Position numbers and translations under genes: made by a program. From an uncultured Leptolyngbyaceae cyanobacterium (GTDB taxonomy: Bacteria; Cyanobacteriota; Cyanobacteriia; Leptolyngbyales; Leptolyngbyaceae), in assembly GCA_938023035.1 (NCBI GenBank), contig CALIDI010000007.1, positions 1-64,000 of the forward strand: DNA of 64,000 nucleotides. Direction: 5' to 3'. This document shows, piece by piece, positions 56,828 to 64,000 of this stretch (position 1 is its first letter; the number at the start of each line of letters is the position of its first letter). A model generated the notes under the pieces. The model was not told the origin of the DNA, did not search any database, and worked only from the letters and a program-made list of their open reading frames with translations.

Positions 56828-57526
56828 CTAAATCATCAGACGCTCGAGCGCATGGGTATCGGGAATACGGAGAACATCGCGATCGCGCACAATTAAGCTT
56901 TTCTTCTCTAACTTGCTCAGTACCCGCGTCACCGTTTCACGCGCCAAACCACTCAAGCTGCTCAGCTCCCGATGAGGCAAATTGGGAATCTCAGTCCCGT
57001 GATCACTTTTCTTCCCTTGACCATCGGCTAAAAACAGCAAAATATCAGCAACCCGCGACGTACTATCAGACTCTCTCAAGCGCAACCGCCGATTTACCTG
57101 ACGCAACCGTCGCGCCATCAACTTCGCCAGTCGAATTCCCGATTCAGGCTCCGTATTGAGCAAATTCACAAAATCTTGGGCCGGCATATTGCCAATCACC
57201 GTTGGAGCCAGTGTAATCACATCTGTTGACCGCGGCACCTCGTCCAGGGGAGCCATCTCACCAAATAACTCCCCCTTACCCAGAATATTGAGCGTTACTT
57301 CTTTCCCATCCAGATTGTAGGTACGAATCTTAACCCACCCACTGAGGATAAAGTAAACAGAGCTACCCCAGTCATTTTCTAACAGAATCACCTGGTTCGC
57401 TGGGTGACTCCGCATCACAACGTGGGAAGTCGCCTTTTCGACAATAGATTCTGGCAAGCCCTGGAAAAACGGGGCAGAACGAATTGATAAGTCGGCAATT
57501 TCCCTTGAATTAAAGCGATCGTCCAT
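56828..57526 (-). CDS. Crp/Fnr-family transcriptional regulator
   Basis: This 232-aa protein has a cyclic-nucleotide-binding fold (about 20-135, with KGELFGEMAPLDEVPRSTDV in place of the phosphate-binding cassette) and a winged helix with LSGLARETVTRVLSKLEKKSLIV. It is not NtcA, since the DNA helix sequence differs. It may be a cAMP receptor of SyCRP type, with the GEMAPLDEVPRST motif supporting nucleotide binding. It lies directly before the ABC ATPase, which it could regulate. Confidence 0.9.
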   Translation of the reverse strand: MDDRFNSREIADLSIRSAPFFQGLPESIVEKATSHVVMRSHPANQVILLENDWGSSVYFILSGWVKIRTYNLDGKEVTLNILGKGELFGEMAPLDEVPRSTDVITLAPTVIGNMPAQDFVNLLNTEPESGIRLAKLMARRLRQVNRRLRLRESDSTSRVADILLFLADGQGKKSDHGTEIPNLPHRELSSLSGLARETVTRVLSKLEKKSLIVRDRDVLRIPDTHALERLMI

Positions 57527-58516
57527 GCGGTTGACTTAGCGTAATTCCCCAGATGAAGCTAAAATATCACAATGCATCCGTATTGAACGAGCAATTTTAC
57601 CTATCCATTCAGTTTAGGAGTCCACCCATCTAACCGAAAACACCGATACCCTTAAAGGCTCTAACAATCTGAATCTGCTTTTGCAAAATTTTGCAAAAAG
57701 TAACCCAATTATCTTCAGATCAAACAGGCGCATATACCGAATCAGGTAAATGTATAAAAGACATCAGATAAATTGAGAAACCCAGACAACTTTTAAGGAG
57801 TAAAACTTAGATTTCTTTCCTTCTCTCTCAGTTATTATTTTATTAAGCTCTAAGTACTTAGGTGATCATACAGGATTTTAGAGATGTGCTTAAAGATCCT
57901 GGTCAGACCGTTGAGGTAAAGGAGTGGCAAACCTCGCGAAAACATATTGCAGAGATCGGGAGATTGATGCCAGCAGATTGCAGCATGAATCTTGGTACGC
58001 TGGCGGAGTGCGTCATCGCGCCCTGATAAATCGCACCCTGATAAAAAGTAAACTTTAGGTATAAATTCGCTCTAGATACAAATCTACTCTGAAGGTTAGA
58101 CATTCAGCTTCACAGTCAGAGTAACAGGCTTTGAGTGACTTTTGGCCTCGTGTTGAGTGATGTCTGCAAAGGAAGTGCCTCTGTGGGTAGGGTTTGTTAT
58201 TCGTTGAGAGCTTAACCCGCTTACTTTTGCAAACCAGTTCTGTTAAGGGATCTTTGCTTTTCTAGTAATCTTTTGGTCAAAGAAATGAAGACAGCATCGT
58301 GAGGGCTTCACCCTATCAATATTTTTTGCTCTGGTCTGACCCATTCTCTGGCCTGGCTATCAAGGTCAAGAACCTCAAGCAACCCCAGAGAAATTCGTTC
58401 TCATTGAGCAGATTCAAAAGTAAAATTAATCGTTCCGACCGGGAAACCTGGGGTATACCGGAGAGTATCAAGATTCTCCGTAGTCAACCCAATTGATAGC
58501 TGTCAAGGGGTTCATC
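57527..58516. other. Long intergenic region
   Basis: Almost 1 kb between the divergent Crp gene and the acidic repeat protein gene. It is AT-rich and has no protein-like frame that I can support. Promoters in both directions are expected. Confidence 0.4.
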
Positions 58517-61500
58517 GTGACATTTCAACAGGATCAAATTCAAGCTCTCATCACTGAGATTGATGGCGTTTTGCAAAAGACCACTCCACGTCTACCGTGG
58601 GTGATGTCTGGTGAGGCCACCCAGCAACGGCAAACTCTTGAGCGGATTCGCAACTTTTTGATCGATTTACAGCAGGGAGTTGGTGGTGCCCCCGTCGATA
58701 TGCGCTCCAGTTTGATGGCCTACGATATTTCCTATCAGCCATCTCAGGCAGAGTTAGGCACGAGCCAAAGTTTTGTTGATGCCCCTGTTGATGCATCGGC
58801 CCAGCAGCTCCTACAGCTTTTGACTCAGGAAATCGCAACCTTACGAGCCGATTTATTGCAACCGCTTCAAGCAGAAATGGAGACTCTGCGACAACAACGG
58901 CAGTTGTTGCTTCAAGAAATCCAACAGCTAAAAAGACAGCAACCCGCCTATCTGCCACCCCAGGGAGAACAGACCCGTCAACTCGCTGTGGAAATTGTGC
59001 AAGTGTTGATGACTCGGCTACAAGAAACCTTGCCCTATCAGATTGCTCAAGGCTTACAGGCGCTTCCAGAGGCTAACCGGTTTGATTTGCCACCCGACTA
59101 TCAGGCATCCCAGCAGATCCGGGCGATTCAGGCCCAATCTGATGAGTTGTTAGTCAATCTAGATACAACCATTCGGATTGTGTTTGAGTCGTTGCAGCGA
59201 GATATTCAGGCCTATCAGGCCTCTTTGTCTCAGGGCATTGAACAAATGCATACCTTGGGGCAGCAGGGAGAGATGATGTTTTCTGCCTTGGTGAGTCATC
59301 TGGCTCAGCAAATTGGGCGAGAAGCTTCCTCCTATTTGCAATCGGCTAACCCGCGAACAGAGGCGAAGCCTGCGAGCACCTTGCCCCCTTCGCTAACGGT
59401 TGCTCCAGTAACGCAATCCACGCCATCCTCTCCCGCTGCAACCCCGCCAACTCTAGGACTGCCCTACCCAGGAGTTGAGCTCCCCCCTCCTGCTGCACCT
59501 GCCCCAACTATAGATGGAGTAGATGGAGCTATTGATCAGTGGCTAACAAATCTTAGGGAAGAACCGGAGGGTATTGCCGGTGACGGTTCTTTACCCCAAG
59601 TTAATCTAGATGGCGTGGATTTGGCGTCCGTCGAAGCAGCGGAAATTGATCATTTCTTGGAGCAATCCAGTCAACTGACTCCAGGGCAGGTAACCGATCC
59701 ACTGCTAGAAGATACGAAGGATATTGATGCGGCGCTGCAATTATTGGAGGAACTGAGTCATGGTGTGGCTCAACCGAGTGACTTGGCCCAGGCCGATGCT
59801 GTTATTGATCAAGTGTTGGGCATTGAAGGGAGTTCAGCTAGTCCAATGACTTCTCCTCTCTATGCAGAGGTAGACGATTTGTATCAGAGTATGTTTGGTG
59901 GTGACAGCTCTGTGACTGACGAGGGGGGGCCTGCTCGTGACACTCCGACGGATTTTGCCGCTGATGCGTTAGTGGTTTCGCCTCCGCCACTGTCAGCGCC
60001 TTTTGTTGAAGAGGCAGTTGGTCATACTCTGCTAGATGTTGACCCAACGGCAGGCTGGGAACTAGGACCGGTGGGAACGGATGGCGTTACGTCAATCGCT
60101 ATGGAGCCGTCGGTTTCGTTTCCTTTGCCGGAGGTGGCGGAAACGACGACTGACGTCACCCCCGATCGAAGTGGTGACTTGACAGACGTTGACCCGACGG
60201 CAGGCTGGGAGTTAGGGCCGGTGGAAACCAATGCAGAAAATCCGGCTGTTGTAGAGACCACGCTGGCAGTGCCCTTGCTCTCTGGGGAAGAGGCGGATGC
60301 TTCCCTGGGGATGCTGCCACTGCCGGAACCAGAGTCTACCCCTGCCGCCGCTCCGCTGCTCAGTTTGAGTGAGGGGGGGGCGATCGATGAAATTAATGCC
60401 TTAACCGATTTGTTGGACGATTTCACAGTTCCGGATGATTTAGCAACGCCTCGTATTCCCCACCCCACCAGTGGTTTGGGGTTGGATGCCTCACAGACAG
60501 TGGATAGTCTCTCTGTTCCAAATCGTGACATTTCTGGGATTGGGGATGATACCTATATTCTTGCTTCACCGGAGGAAGTTTTGCTACCAGAGTCTTTACC
60601 GTCAGAAACTAGCAGTCGTTTCTGGTTGGATGAGGCAACTTTGAGTGAGTTGAGTGAGGATCTTTCTAATCTTGAAGCTGGCTTTTCAGATAGTGGAGTG
60701 CCACCATTGACCTTTGAGGAAACTACGGGCTTTGGTATTTTTGGCTCTGCACCAGAGTCTGTATCGACTCCCGATGTACTAGAGGTGCAAGATGCTACCC
60801 CAATGATAGATATCCCTGGTGTGGATAGTCTTGCTGCTTTTGGACAAGAGTTTTTAGCCGCAACAGAGCCACCTTCAGAGGGGTTGACCCCATTAGCAGC
60901 AGAGTCTTTTGAAGAGCCTGCCATTGCTGCCGTTGAGCCACTGCCAGAGTCACCCTCAATTGACGATTTGTTTGGAGATTTTGGCGGGGCGGATACGATA
61001 TCGGAGCAGTTGGCTGAAGCTTCAGTGTCACCGGTGCTCGATGACTTTTTGGAAGATTTTAGCTCACCGGATACAGCGCCAGCAGCATCGGCTGCGGTGC
61101 CGATGTTAGATGAGTTTTTGGGCGATTTTGGGACGCTTTCCACTCCAACTGTTGTTCCTCCAGTCGCTCCCAGTTTGGATGATTTCTCCCAGGATGTTGA
61201 CTCAGGCCCAGGATTGAACCTGCCTACTGGAGCAGGTTCCGAATTCACTTTAGAGGGGATGGATGATTTGTTTGCAGATGTTCCTTCTGTGGCGGCGACT
61301 CCTGTGCCACCTCCGGCGACAGCAACCCCATCGGCTCCTTCGACCTTTGGCCTAGGGGGGATTGATGATTTGTTTGCAGCAGTGCCGCCGACTATGGCGA
61401 CTCCGATTACTCCTCCTGGTATGGTGGAGTCTACTTCTGGCGCTGCAACAGAGGGGGAGGGGGTAGCCTTTACCTTAGAAGGAATGCATGACCTGTTTGG

Positions 61501-61912
61501 TGACGCGCCAGCCAGTCCTGGGTCAACTAGTTCTTTGGAAGAAGTCATGCTGACTGAAGATGTGGCTTTTCTGCCAGCAGAACCGACGATGTTGACAACT
61601 CCTGAGTTGTTGGATAAGCAACTCTTACCCTCAACTCTGGAGGCAGAAAAGGTTGCTTTTACGTTGGAGGAAATTGAGGGAATTTTTACGGAGGTAGAAG
61701 TACCGATTACGGCGATCGCTCAGCCCCTATCAGACTCAGCGACCTCAGCTTTTAGCCTGGAAAACCATGGTGGGGTCTTTGTGGAGGTTTCGACCAATAG
61801 AGCCAGTGATGAGCGGATGGCGGCAGCTTCTGGCCCTTCCAAAATTGATGACTTGTTCAGTGATCTACCGCCGAGGGAGGATAGGACGGAAAAAAAAACA
61901 GAAGAGCGCTGA
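58517..61912 (+). CDS. Large acidic repeat protein with DDLF motifs
   Basis: This 1131-aa protein is unusual. Residues about 1-270 are helical with a coiled coil (QQLLQLLTQEIATLRADLLQ and on). The rest is acidic, rich in Pro, Ser, Thr and Ala, and probably disordered. It includes a repeated VDPTAGWELGPV and, near the C-terminus, about ten variants of a short motif such as GMDDLFADVP, GIDDLFAAVP, IDDLFGDFG, LDEFLGDFG and IDDLFSDLP. The GTG at 58517 has AAGGGG upstream. The downstream Hsp70-like gene begins six bases after the stop. No named family is recognised. Confidence 0.8.
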   Translation: MTFQQDQIQALITEIDGVLQKTTPRLPWVMSGEATQQRQTLERIRNFLIDLQQGVGGAPVDMRSSLMAYDISYQPSQAELGTSQSFVDAPVDASAQQLLQLLTQEIATLRADLLQPLQAEMETLRQQRQLLLQEIQQLKRQQPAYLPPQGEQTRQLAVEIVQVLMTRLQETLPYQIAQGLQALPEANRFDLPPDYQASQQIRAIQAQSDELLVNLDTTIRIVFESLQRDIQAYQASLSQGIEQMHTLGQQGEMMFSALVSHLAQQIGREASSYLQSANPRTEAKPASTLPPSLTVAPVTQSTPSSPAATPPTLGLPYPGVELPPPAAPAPTIDGVDGAIDQWLTNLREEPEGIAGDGSLPQVNLDGVDLASVEAAEIDHFLEQSSQLTPGQVTDPLLEDTKDIDAALQLLEELSHGVAQPSDLAQADAVIDQVLGIEGSSASPMTSPLYAEVDDLYQSMFGGDSSVTDEGGPARDTPTDFAADALVVSPPPLSAPFVEEAVGHTLLDVDPTAGWELGPVGTDGVTSIAMEPSVSFPLPEVAETTTDVTPDRSGDLTDVDPTAGWELGPVETNAENPAVVETTLAVPLLSGEEADASLGMLPLPEPESTPAAAPLLSLSEGGAIDEINALTDLLDDFTVPDDLATPRIPHPTSGLGLDASQTVDSLSVPNRDISGIGDDTYILASPEEVLLPESLPSETSSRFWLDEATLSELSEDLSNLEAGFSDSGVPPLTFEETTGFGIFGSAPESVSTPDVLEVQDATPMIDIPGVDSLAAFGQEFLAATEPPSEGLTPLAAESFEEPAIAAVEPLPESPSIDDLFGDFGGADTISEQLAEASVSPVLDDFLEDFSSPDTAPAASAAVPMLDEFLGDFGTLSTPTVVPPVAPSLDDFSQDVDSGPGLNLPTGAGSEFTLEGMDDLFADVPSVAATPVPPPATATPSAPSTFGLGGIDDLFAAVPPTMATPITPPGMVESTSGAATEGEGVAFTLEGMHDLFGDAPASPGSTSSLEEVMLTEDVAFLPAEPTMLTTPELLDKQLLPSTLEAEKVAFTLEEIEGIFTEVEVPITAIAQPLSDSATSAFSLENHGGVFVEVSTNRASDERMAAASGPSKIDDLFSDLPPREDRTEKKTEER

Positions 61913-61917
61913 GTTTG

Positions 61918-63705
61918 GTGGCGCAGAATCATCGCTCGGGGCCAATCCCTCCTTTAGCGATCGCCCTGGGGTCAAAGCCGATAAACTTCCTTGACTTGAA
62001 TACCCACCTTCACTCTGCTCTGGTGCCTTTGGGGGATGCGGCCAGCGAATGGTATTTGGGGATTCAGCTAGGGACAACGGCTCTGATTGCGATCTTGTTG
62101 AATCCAAAGACATGCGAGCAATCCTCTCTGGGCGTTTGGCCTTGGTATTCATCATCTTGCGCCGCCCCTGTTGCATTTGCTGATAGGGCATTTACCTGTT
62201 CTGCAAATGCCAATTCCCCAGACTGGTTGCCCGCAGATGAGGCTCATGCTTACAACCAACTCCTGACCTATAGCCAGCAGTATTTCAGCATGGGCGTGCC
62301 CTACTATTGTGCTCAGACTCAGACCTGGCTACCCGCAATTCAATGGTCTCGGCTTCAATCGTTCTCCTTGCACCAGATTCAGCAAAAGATTACGGGTATT
62401 TTGATGGGTCTGAAATCGAGTGGCCTGCCTTCTCTGGCGGGTGTGGTAGTCAATCGTTGTGTAGGGAGCAGCGAATCCTACGATTTTAATTTGCGGGAGG
62501 CAGTCTTAGCCGCAGGGTTAGTGCCGCATCCAGAGCAGATCTATTTTGTTGAAGGAGCGATCGCGGCTTTACTGGAAACAGTAACCCCAACAGATGTCCG
62601 TTCCGATAGCCCGATTCAACGGGGAACGATCGCGAATCTGCGGGAGGGTAAAACCTTGCTTTTGTTTGTGGGAGCCGTCGAAACAGAGTGGCTATTAGTC
62701 GATTTGCCGGCGGATTGCTCAACGTTGCAACGCTCAGACTGCTATCTGCGTGGGTTTGCCTATGGTACAAACGATCTAGATCAGGATATAGTGGCGCAAC
62801 TGTTTTATCCGCGCCTGCGGCAAACAGGGCAAGTTGCTAGGGTAAATTGCCCTCTCCCAGGGCAACCCGACGCTTTGGTAAGAGTTGCTTTTGAGCAACA
62901 GTTGCATGATTTGCCAGAGGGTATTAACTTACTGCGGCTGGCGGGTCAGGTACGCGAAATGTTGTGTCGAGAGGCAACGGCCCAGGCTCAGTTTGAGCAA
63001 TGGCAATGGCAGCTCTCAGAGGCGGAGTTTAGCCAGCAAATTCTCTCACCGTTTATCCAAGGATTAAATCGTGAATGCAATGTGCTCTTGAGTCAGACGG
63101 GGACAGATGCCGCAGCCATTCGCCAAGTGATTTGCGTTGGCGCGATCGCCCAAACTGCCACGATCCGGTGTTGGCTCAAACAAAAGCTTCCTAACACCAA
63201 ACTAGTTGCGCCCGCCGAACTTTTGACCGAGAGTTTACTGGCGAGGGGCTTGGCCAAAATTCCCCTATATCCCCAGTTGATTGATACTACCCGCCATCAG
63301 TACAGTACGTTGTTTCTCTTGCAGGAATTACTCAACGCTTTACCAAATACCCCCCTGAGTCTGGGGCAAGTTTTGCAACGACTAGAGCGCCGTGGTATTC
63401 ACACTAGTGCCTGCCAGAAAATGATCCTCAACCTCCTAGAGGGAGAACTGCCAGCCATGCTAGCTGCTCCTGATAACGCCTGGTTAAGCCCTAGTAGCCA
63501 GCATCCGGCGATCACCCAAACCCTGGCAGCAACCCCTCTCTTCAAGAAGCAAGATCATCACTATGTGGTCAACGAGCCTGCCAAGGCCGCTCTAAAGCAA
63601 CATCTGGAAACCCTACTGGCAACCACTATCCAAACCCTGCAAGAACCCCTACCCTTTGGCTTAACCAATGCCCAGCCATCCTCTTTTGCCTCCGCCCGCA
63701 ACTAA
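61918..63705 (+). CDS. Divergent Hsp70/actin-fold-like protein
   Basis: This 595-aa protein has the motif order of Hsp70/actin ATPases in weak form. LREAVLAAGLVPHPEQIYFVEGAIAALLE resembles the NEPTAAAL region. KTLLLFVGAVETEWLLVD stands at the second phosphate-loop position and RGFAYGTNDLDQDIVAQL at the GGEDFD region. VICVGAIAQTATIRCWLKQ follows at the adenosine-motif position. Typical DLGGGT residues are missing, so ATP binding is uncertain. GTG at 61918 and TTG at 61915 are both possible starts. The gene is coupled to the acidic repeat protein. No standard annotation is recognised. Confidence 0.6.
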   Translation: MAQNHRSGPIPPLAIALGSKPINFLDLNTHLHSALVPLGDAASEWYLGIQLGTTALIAILLNPKTCEQSSLGVWPWYSSSCAAPVAFADRAFTCSANANSPDWLPADEAHAYNQLLTYSQQYFSMGVPYYCAQTQTWLPAIQWSRLQSFSLHQIQQKITGILMGLKSSGLPSLAGVVVNRCVGSSESYDFNLREAVLAAGLVPHPEQIYFVEGAIAALLETVTPTDVRSDSPIQRGTIANLREGKTLLLFVGAVETEWLLVDLPADCSTLQRSDCYLRGFAYGTNDLDQDIVAQLFYPRLRQTGQVARVNCPLPGQPDALVRVAFEQQLHDLPEGINLLRLAGQVREMLCREATAQAQFEQWQWQLSEAEFSQQILSPFIQGLNRECNVLLSQTGTDAAAIRQVICVGAIAQTATIRCWLKQKLPNTKLVAPAELLTESLLARGLAKIPLYPQLIDTTRHQYSTLFLLQELLNALPNTPLSLGQVLQRLERRGIHTSACQKMILNLLEGELPAMLAAPDNAWLSPSSQHPAITQTLAATPLFKKQDHHYVVNEPAKAALKQHLETLLATTIQTLQEPLPFGLTNAQPSSFASARN

Positions 63706-64000
63706 GAGAATGGCTTAAAAAGCCAATCCTTCAGTATCCCCAGCCACTCAAGTCGCGGCAATATGGAATCAGACACAACCTTACCTCCGCAGGCTACGGA
63801 AAGCTCTAGTTGGTTGAAGTCTACAGCAGGGGATGTGGAGTCCTGCCAGCACAGTTTTAACCACCGAAGCTTTTTCAAACGCCCGCTCAACCAAAGAGCA
63901 GCCCAAGATTTCGGCCAATTTATCAGGTCAGCTAACCCGAGTTAAAAACCTCCAGTGTAGCTACAACCCAGGGGTAAAACCATCTTTCCTTAAACCTGCC
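63706..64000. other. Window end, nothing recognised
   Basis: About 300 bp after the Hsp70-like gene. Frames on both strands (63702-63890 minus, 63763-63945 plus) overlap and neither has clear protein character. Confidence 0.35.

Follow-up and report, generated by a model that had tools for sequence, protein, structure and literature searches.

A conserved cyanobacterial gene pair encoding a motif-bearing scaffold protein and an Hsp70-fold partner

The window analyzed here is a stretch of 64,000 nucleotides (positions 1 to 64,000 of contig CALIDI010000007.1, assembly GCA_938023035.1) from an uncultured cyanobacterium of the Leptolyngbyaceae. Close to its end lie two consecutive forward-strand genes, one for a long scaffold protein (P1) and one for an Hsp70-like protein (P2). 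The two form a real and conserved system, and the evidence supports an undescribed, functionally coupled pair in which a multivalent scaffold is joined to an Hsp70-fold partner. The original prediction, made from the sequence of the window, could match neither protein to a described system, and literature searches, which covered the papers in part, yielded no description and no characterized member. The reading preferred here, given a probability of roughly 0.45, is that P1 and P2 make up one cyanobacterial machine, in which one element of the P1 tail (M2) would hold P2 and a second type of motif (LF) would offer sites to a third protein. The two genes and the first domain of P1 are as follows.

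58517..61912, + strand: P1, scaffold protein of 1131 amino acids with a GTG start (open reading frame and homologs)
61915..63705, + strand: P2, Hsp70-like protein of 596 amino acids (open reading frame, homologs and AlphaFold2 model)
58517..59386, + strand: P1 head, residues 1-290, conserved coiled-coil domain (homolog identity, hhalign and PDB profile matches)

Linkage and fusion of the two genes

Both open reading frames were confirmed where they had been predicted. P1 starts at the GTG at 58517, and its residue M1 is invariant in the alignment of the P1 family. P2 starts at the TTG at 61915 or the GTG at 61918, that is, 2 or 5 bases past the P1 stop. Searches against Pfam and NCBIfam gave chance matches only for P1 and a weak HscA match only for P2 (8e-4), and an Rfam scan of positions 57000-64000 gave no match.

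P2 homologs were found in 33 of 58 relatives and in 50 of 194 sampled cyanobacteria. A scan of genome contigs with P2 alone returned no match; an alignment of the P1 head succeeded. Using this head, 80 named loci were identified in Leptolyngbya, Microcoleus, Arthrospira, Moorena, Nodosilinea, Roseofilum and other genera. Among the 65 of these that could be evaluated, meaning that the contig extends far enough around the head locus, 34 have the genes side by side on one strand and 22 have them fused in a single frame, with 6 loci lacking a nearby P2 and 3 arranged otherwise. The pairing would have been doubtful had the two genes rarely been neighbors; in this survey they are neighbors or fused in 56 of 65.

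The fused proteins, 31 in number and 589-2,611 amino acids long, follow the order head, M1, M2, linker and Hsp70-like domain, where M1 and M2 are tail elements described below and either is absent from some of the proteins. Fused and adjacent states are mixed on the head tree, requiring 13 to 15 changes, at least 5 of which are forced by well-supported branches. There have been several independent fusion or fission events between P1 and P2, and such repetition argues strongly for joint action of the two products. Two compact fusions, L095 (589 amino acids) and L190 (555 amino acids), join the head straight to the Hsp70-like domain and have no motif tail; they suggest that head and ATPase form the minimal core.

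The fold and active site of P2

Proteins with the Hsp70 fold are known chiefly as chaperones, and their actin-like relatives as filaments. To P2 the original prediction had assigned an Hsp70/actin relationship with degenerate motifs, open to contradiction by an unrelated fold. An AlphaFold2 model built with 41 homologs has a predicted local distance difference test score (pLDDT) of 85.5 and a predicted template modeling score of 0.86. All of the best 50 Foldseek matches are of the Hsp70/DnaK type, the first being the DnaK nucleotide-binding domain (E 1.2e-12), and VIA-align superposes 344 residues on DnaK (Z 22.0, root-mean-square deviation 3.9). The model of a fused homolog gives the same Hsp70 fold. 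By sequence the relationship is weak: the P2 profile reaches DnaK in the PDB at 7e-4 and, with hhalign, the DnaK of its own genome at 7.8e-5, while the Pfam HSP70 profile does not match the window protein and gives weak matches, 9.6e-5 at best, to 12 of 41 homologs. The following features of P2 were placed by the model and by alignment.

62044..63279, + strand: Hsp70/actin-type nucleotide-binding domain, residues 44-455 (AlphaFold2, Foldseek, VIA-align)
63280..63684, + strand: small, mostly helical C-terminal domain in place of the substrate-binding domain (AlphaFold2 model; conserved in the alignment)
62065..62067, + strand: Q51, where Hsp70 has D10 (80 of 84 homologs have D; alignment)
62275..62277, + strand: Q121, where Hsp70 has K71 (K or R in 76 of 84; alignment)
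62665..62667, + strand: F251, where Hsp70 has D199 (S or N in 60 of 84, D in 9 of 84; alignment)

P2 therefore resembles Hsp70/DnaK in the fold of residues 44-455, in its motif order, in the adenosine glycine and in E175, and differs from it in several respects. The C-terminal substrate-binding domain of Hsp70, with its beta sandwich and lid, is absent from the predicted model; the nucleotide-binding domain is followed instead by a stretch of about 135 residues that is largely helical and has two short strands. P2 is joined to a scaffold, and no gene for a J-protein or GrpE was seen nearby; dnaJ and grpE are not conserved among the annotated neighbor clusters, although such partners could be encoded elsewhere. 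The closest cellular relative of P2 among those tested is a cyanobacterial Hsp70-family paralog of about 530 amino acids (contig C26 of the window's own genome, G000; locus L183:6997-8595), which aligns over 346 columns (hhalign probability 97, E 8.6e-11). Unlike P2, it matches Pfam HSP70 at 6e-30, is a separate gene and has no P1 partner seen at its locus. Open reading frames of this kind occur in many cyanobacteria and represent a second divergent Hsp70-family protein.

The degeneracy of the motifs was borne out in the window, where D10, K71 and D199 are replaced as listed and E175 is kept as E213. Across the family, D199 is gone from most members, E175 is kept in 71 of 84 homologs, and D10, K/R71 and E175 are all kept in 66 of 84; it follows that the family may bind, and perhaps hydrolyze, nucleotide. 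Loss of both D10 and K71 is confined to 2 of 84 homologs, those of the window and of its same-genus sister genome (G001). With three of the four catalytic residues lost, P2 in the window's genus is probably a pseudo-ATPase, as judged from the alignment, with a probable structural or nucleotide-sensing role there.

These residue losses, together with a P1 tail whose length in homologs varies between next to nothing and well above 1,000 amino acids, could also be read as the decay of P2 into a pseudo-enzyme, beside a tail of neutral low-complexity sequence. This reading is very improbable: the reading frames are intact across many families, the P1 head is 70% identical to that of the sister genome (23-57% to other homologs), the tail motifs M1, M2 and LF are conserved, and most of the family retains D10, K/R71 and E175.

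It is also quite unlikely that P2 is an actin-like filament former of the MreB or ParM type, with P1 as its cross-linker or adaptor in a cytoskeletal system. VIA-align gives MreB a Z of 20.0, near the values for DnaK, the P1 head is a coiled coil and its tail multivalent, and filamentous genera are common among the named hosts; an actin-like fold is common to the whole superfamily. Foldseek ranked Hsp70 first throughout, catalytic residues are lost in the window's genus, and at 31 loci P2 makes up the C-terminal part of a longer protein, of as many as 2,611 amino acids, an awkward arrangement for a polymer. Unlike MreB and PilM, P2 was seen without mre or pil context, carries an extra C-terminal domain and has a long N-terminal scaffold or partner.

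Motifs of the P1 tail and their candidate partners

Behind the coiled-coil head, P1 continues as an acidic, disordered tail of 841 amino acids, with 155 D+E, 17 K+R and 95 P. About ten DDLF-type motifs had been reported in it from the sequence. By shuffling, strict DDLF occurs in 4 copies against 0.02 expected, and the relaxed pattern [IMLV][DEHG][DEG][LFIV][FL] in 8 against 0.47; the count comes to about ten when the looser SLDDFSQDV and NHGGVFVEV are included. Together, 97 homologous tails contain 386 copies of [DE]LF where 68 would be expected, and the scrambled controls FL[DE] (60 vs 68) and F[DE]L (69 vs 68) show no excess. The LF motif is therefore real and family-wide, and not an effect of composition. 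The tail is thus a disordered chain with repeated short motifs, as a scaffold or condensate protein would be, and the linker of a fused homolog is correspondingly modeled with pLDDT below 50.

Using iterative profiles over 105 tails, three elements (M1, M2 and LF) were defined, with 107 copies of the LF repeat in 30 tails. Their positions in the window are listed with a further repeat of the tail.

59705..59920, + strand: M1, residues 397-468, DxDxALxLLEQLS ... ELDEFYQSLFG (in 68 of 105 tails)
60545..60679, + strand: M2, residues 677-721, DDTYILASPEEVLLP ... FWLDEATLSELSEDLSNLE, candidate P2 docking site (in 85 of 105 tails)
60950..61870, + strand: LF-motif array, residues 812-1118, consensus FTLEGMDDLFxDVP (motif counts, iterative profiles)
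60951-60984, 61029-61062, 61251-61284, 61353-61386, 61476-61509 and last near 61835-61870, + strand: LF copies
60034..60233, + strand: two copies of DVDPTAGWELGPV(E/G) in the P1 tail, a 50-nucleotide repeat with 84% identical DNA (repeat comparison)

A segment search found the DVDPTAGWELGPV repeat scarcely conserved among other P1 homologs.

The LF motifs and M2 behave differently with respect to P2. Protein and profile searches identified 16 genomes of the same family without P2 (one of them, G034, is 69% complete), and these retain a short P1 of 262-470 amino acids. M2 is present in 78 of 87 tails with P2 vs 1 of 16 without it, while an LF motif lies in the last 50 amino acids of P1 in 14 of the 16 genomes without P2. 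For a natural fusion (L077, residues 731-1721), AlphaFold2 gives the M2 helix block a pLDDT of 88, and no other segment of the tail turns ordered; nearly all else of the 300-residue linker, LF motifs included, stays below 50. Because M2 is lost along with P2 and is ordered in the fusion model, it is a candidate dock for P2. The simplest reading of these data and of the model is that M2 docks P2, and that the LF motifs bind a different protein.

The original prediction had instead treated the DDLF motifs as clients of the Hsp70-like protein, so that P2 would be a chaperone-like receptor for LF peptides in a client-chaperone or condensate system. The genes are indeed coupled, LF motifs adjoin the ATPase in the linker of some fused proteins, and LF arrays are richest among P2-bearing Leptolyngbyaceae. 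The proposal fails to fit the persistence of LF at the P1 C-terminus where P2 is missing, the lack of a substrate-binding domain in the predicted P2, and the few or zero LF motifs of distant P2-bearing families. In the fusion model, moreover, LF is disordered while the element that is ordered, M2, is the one that vanishes with P2. A client relationship between LF and P2 is accordingly considered unlikely.

Several points weigh against the preferred assignment of M2 to P2 and of LF to a third protein. The Fisher value for the association of M2 with P2 (5e-11) overstates independence, because the loci share ancestry, and the absence of P2 is explained by 4 changes on the head tree. The 14 C-terminal LF occurrences, against 0.08 expected, were counted with a pattern composed after the sequences had been inspected. 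Contact between M2 and P2 is deduced from this association and from pLDDT, and the third, LF-binding protein is postulated. M2 also occurs without a nearby P2 in Arthrospira, Hormoscilla and one Leptolyngbyaceae metagenome-assembled genome (L140, L139 and L136, respectively). The head, finally, is shared with a family of transporters (see below), which may reflect just a common oligomerization module.

In two loci, L212 and L136, the P1 frame is broken after the start of M2, either by a frameshift or by an assembly error; in L136 the remaining M2 and an LF motif lie downstream in another frame.

Possible membrane tether, neighboring genes and the proposed machine

Homology links the second half of the P1 head to the cytosolic N-terminal region of EamA transporters (hhalign probability 99, E 8e-18). 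EamA proteins with this type of head, of about 580-800 amino acids, are encoded in most P1-bearing genomes, including that of the window. They differ from P1 in that the head sits on a membrane transporter, with no acidic motif tail and no Hsp70 domain. Since the same type of head is found on a membrane protein, homology suggests a possible membrane tether for P1, in which its head would pair with that of the EamA protein. Matches of the head to Max, ZapB and GCN4 in the PDB were set aside as generic coiled coils. HmpF, a cyanobacteria-specific coiled-coil regulator (PMC12288463), is like P1 a cyanobacterial coiled-coil protein when compared by description only; unlike for P1, a directly attached Hsp70-like partner is not described in that review. 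The transporter and the conserved neighbor of the pair in the window are as follows.

G000, contig C48 (L177:9068-10819): EamA-family transporter with N-terminal cytosolic coiled-coil head
56828..57526, - strand: Crp/Fnr-family regulator, divergent conserved neighbor (profile match, neighborhood survey)

The Crp/Fnr gene is strongly conserved across cyanobacteria: of 112 evaluable loci, a number of which were counted by two routes, 90 have it divergent from P1. Its product scores below the cut-offs for NtcA, CRP and PtrA. The region between the two genes in the window, 57527-58516, is almost 1 kb long. The consensus E. coli-type Crp site gave 23 matches in the window vs 25 expected, none of them between the Crp gene and P1 (two mismatches), and direct regulation by Crp is therefore not supported by such a site. 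Besides Crp, the conserved neighbors are DUF2232, CobT-like, sugar transferase and PgsA genes.

This neighborhood bears on another proposal, in which P2 would be a PilM-like component and the pair would regulate secreted polysaccharide or type IV pili. Pfam PilM_2 matches 16 of 41 P2 homologs weakly (best 1.8e-5), a sugar transferase is nearby in 8 of 40 loci, and the conserved Crp-type neighbor recalls, by analogy, SyCRP1, the Crp of Synechocystis that controls and is required for pili (PMC2633013). A DnaK1/DnaJ3 system with a canonical DnaK has also been linked to pili in Nostoc (PMC9239167). However, the window P2 has no PilM_2 match, no pil genes are among the conserved neighbors, and a pilMNOQ context was not seen for P2, whose bearers among the relatives have a separate PilM. 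That PilM is not among the best 50 structural matches listed carries no weight against it. On balance a role in pili or polysaccharide appears improbable. The idea that type IV pili were lost in the window species, which would have tied the decay of P2 to pili, was dropped, as homologs of pilB, pilT and pilC are present. PilM itself is found in 17 of 20 compared genomes and was not found in G000 (95.9% complete), where an assembly gap is possible.

In the preferred reading of P1 and P2 as one machine, P1 would oligomerize through its coiled-coil head and could be tethered to the membrane by pairing with the head of the EamA transporter. Its long acidic, disordered tail would carry separate docking motifs: M2 would hold P2 on the scaffold, and the FTLEGMDDLF-type LF motifs, often arrayed, would be multivalent sites for a third, widely conserved protein. 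On the scaffold, P2 would then serve as a clamp or switch that depends on nucleotide, and not as a folding chaperone. A more specific form of this proposal is put forward tentatively and is on present evidence rather doubtful: a cyanobacteria-specific, nucleotide-gated scaffold, in which an Hsp70-type domain without a substrate-binding domain would be permanently attached, by fusion or through M2, to an oligomeric, membrane-tethered disordered scaffold whose LF arrays recruit a conserved cellular protein.

These data place a whole branch of the Hsp70 fold, present in about a quarter of the sampled cyanobacterial genomes, with a motif-bearing scaffold to which it is bound, with repeated fusion and fission of the genes. 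Given natural P1-only deletions, fusions and a pseudo-ATPase lineage, what the motifs and ATP contribute can be tested directly. The LF partner, once found, would probably reveal the cell structure that is organized by this system.

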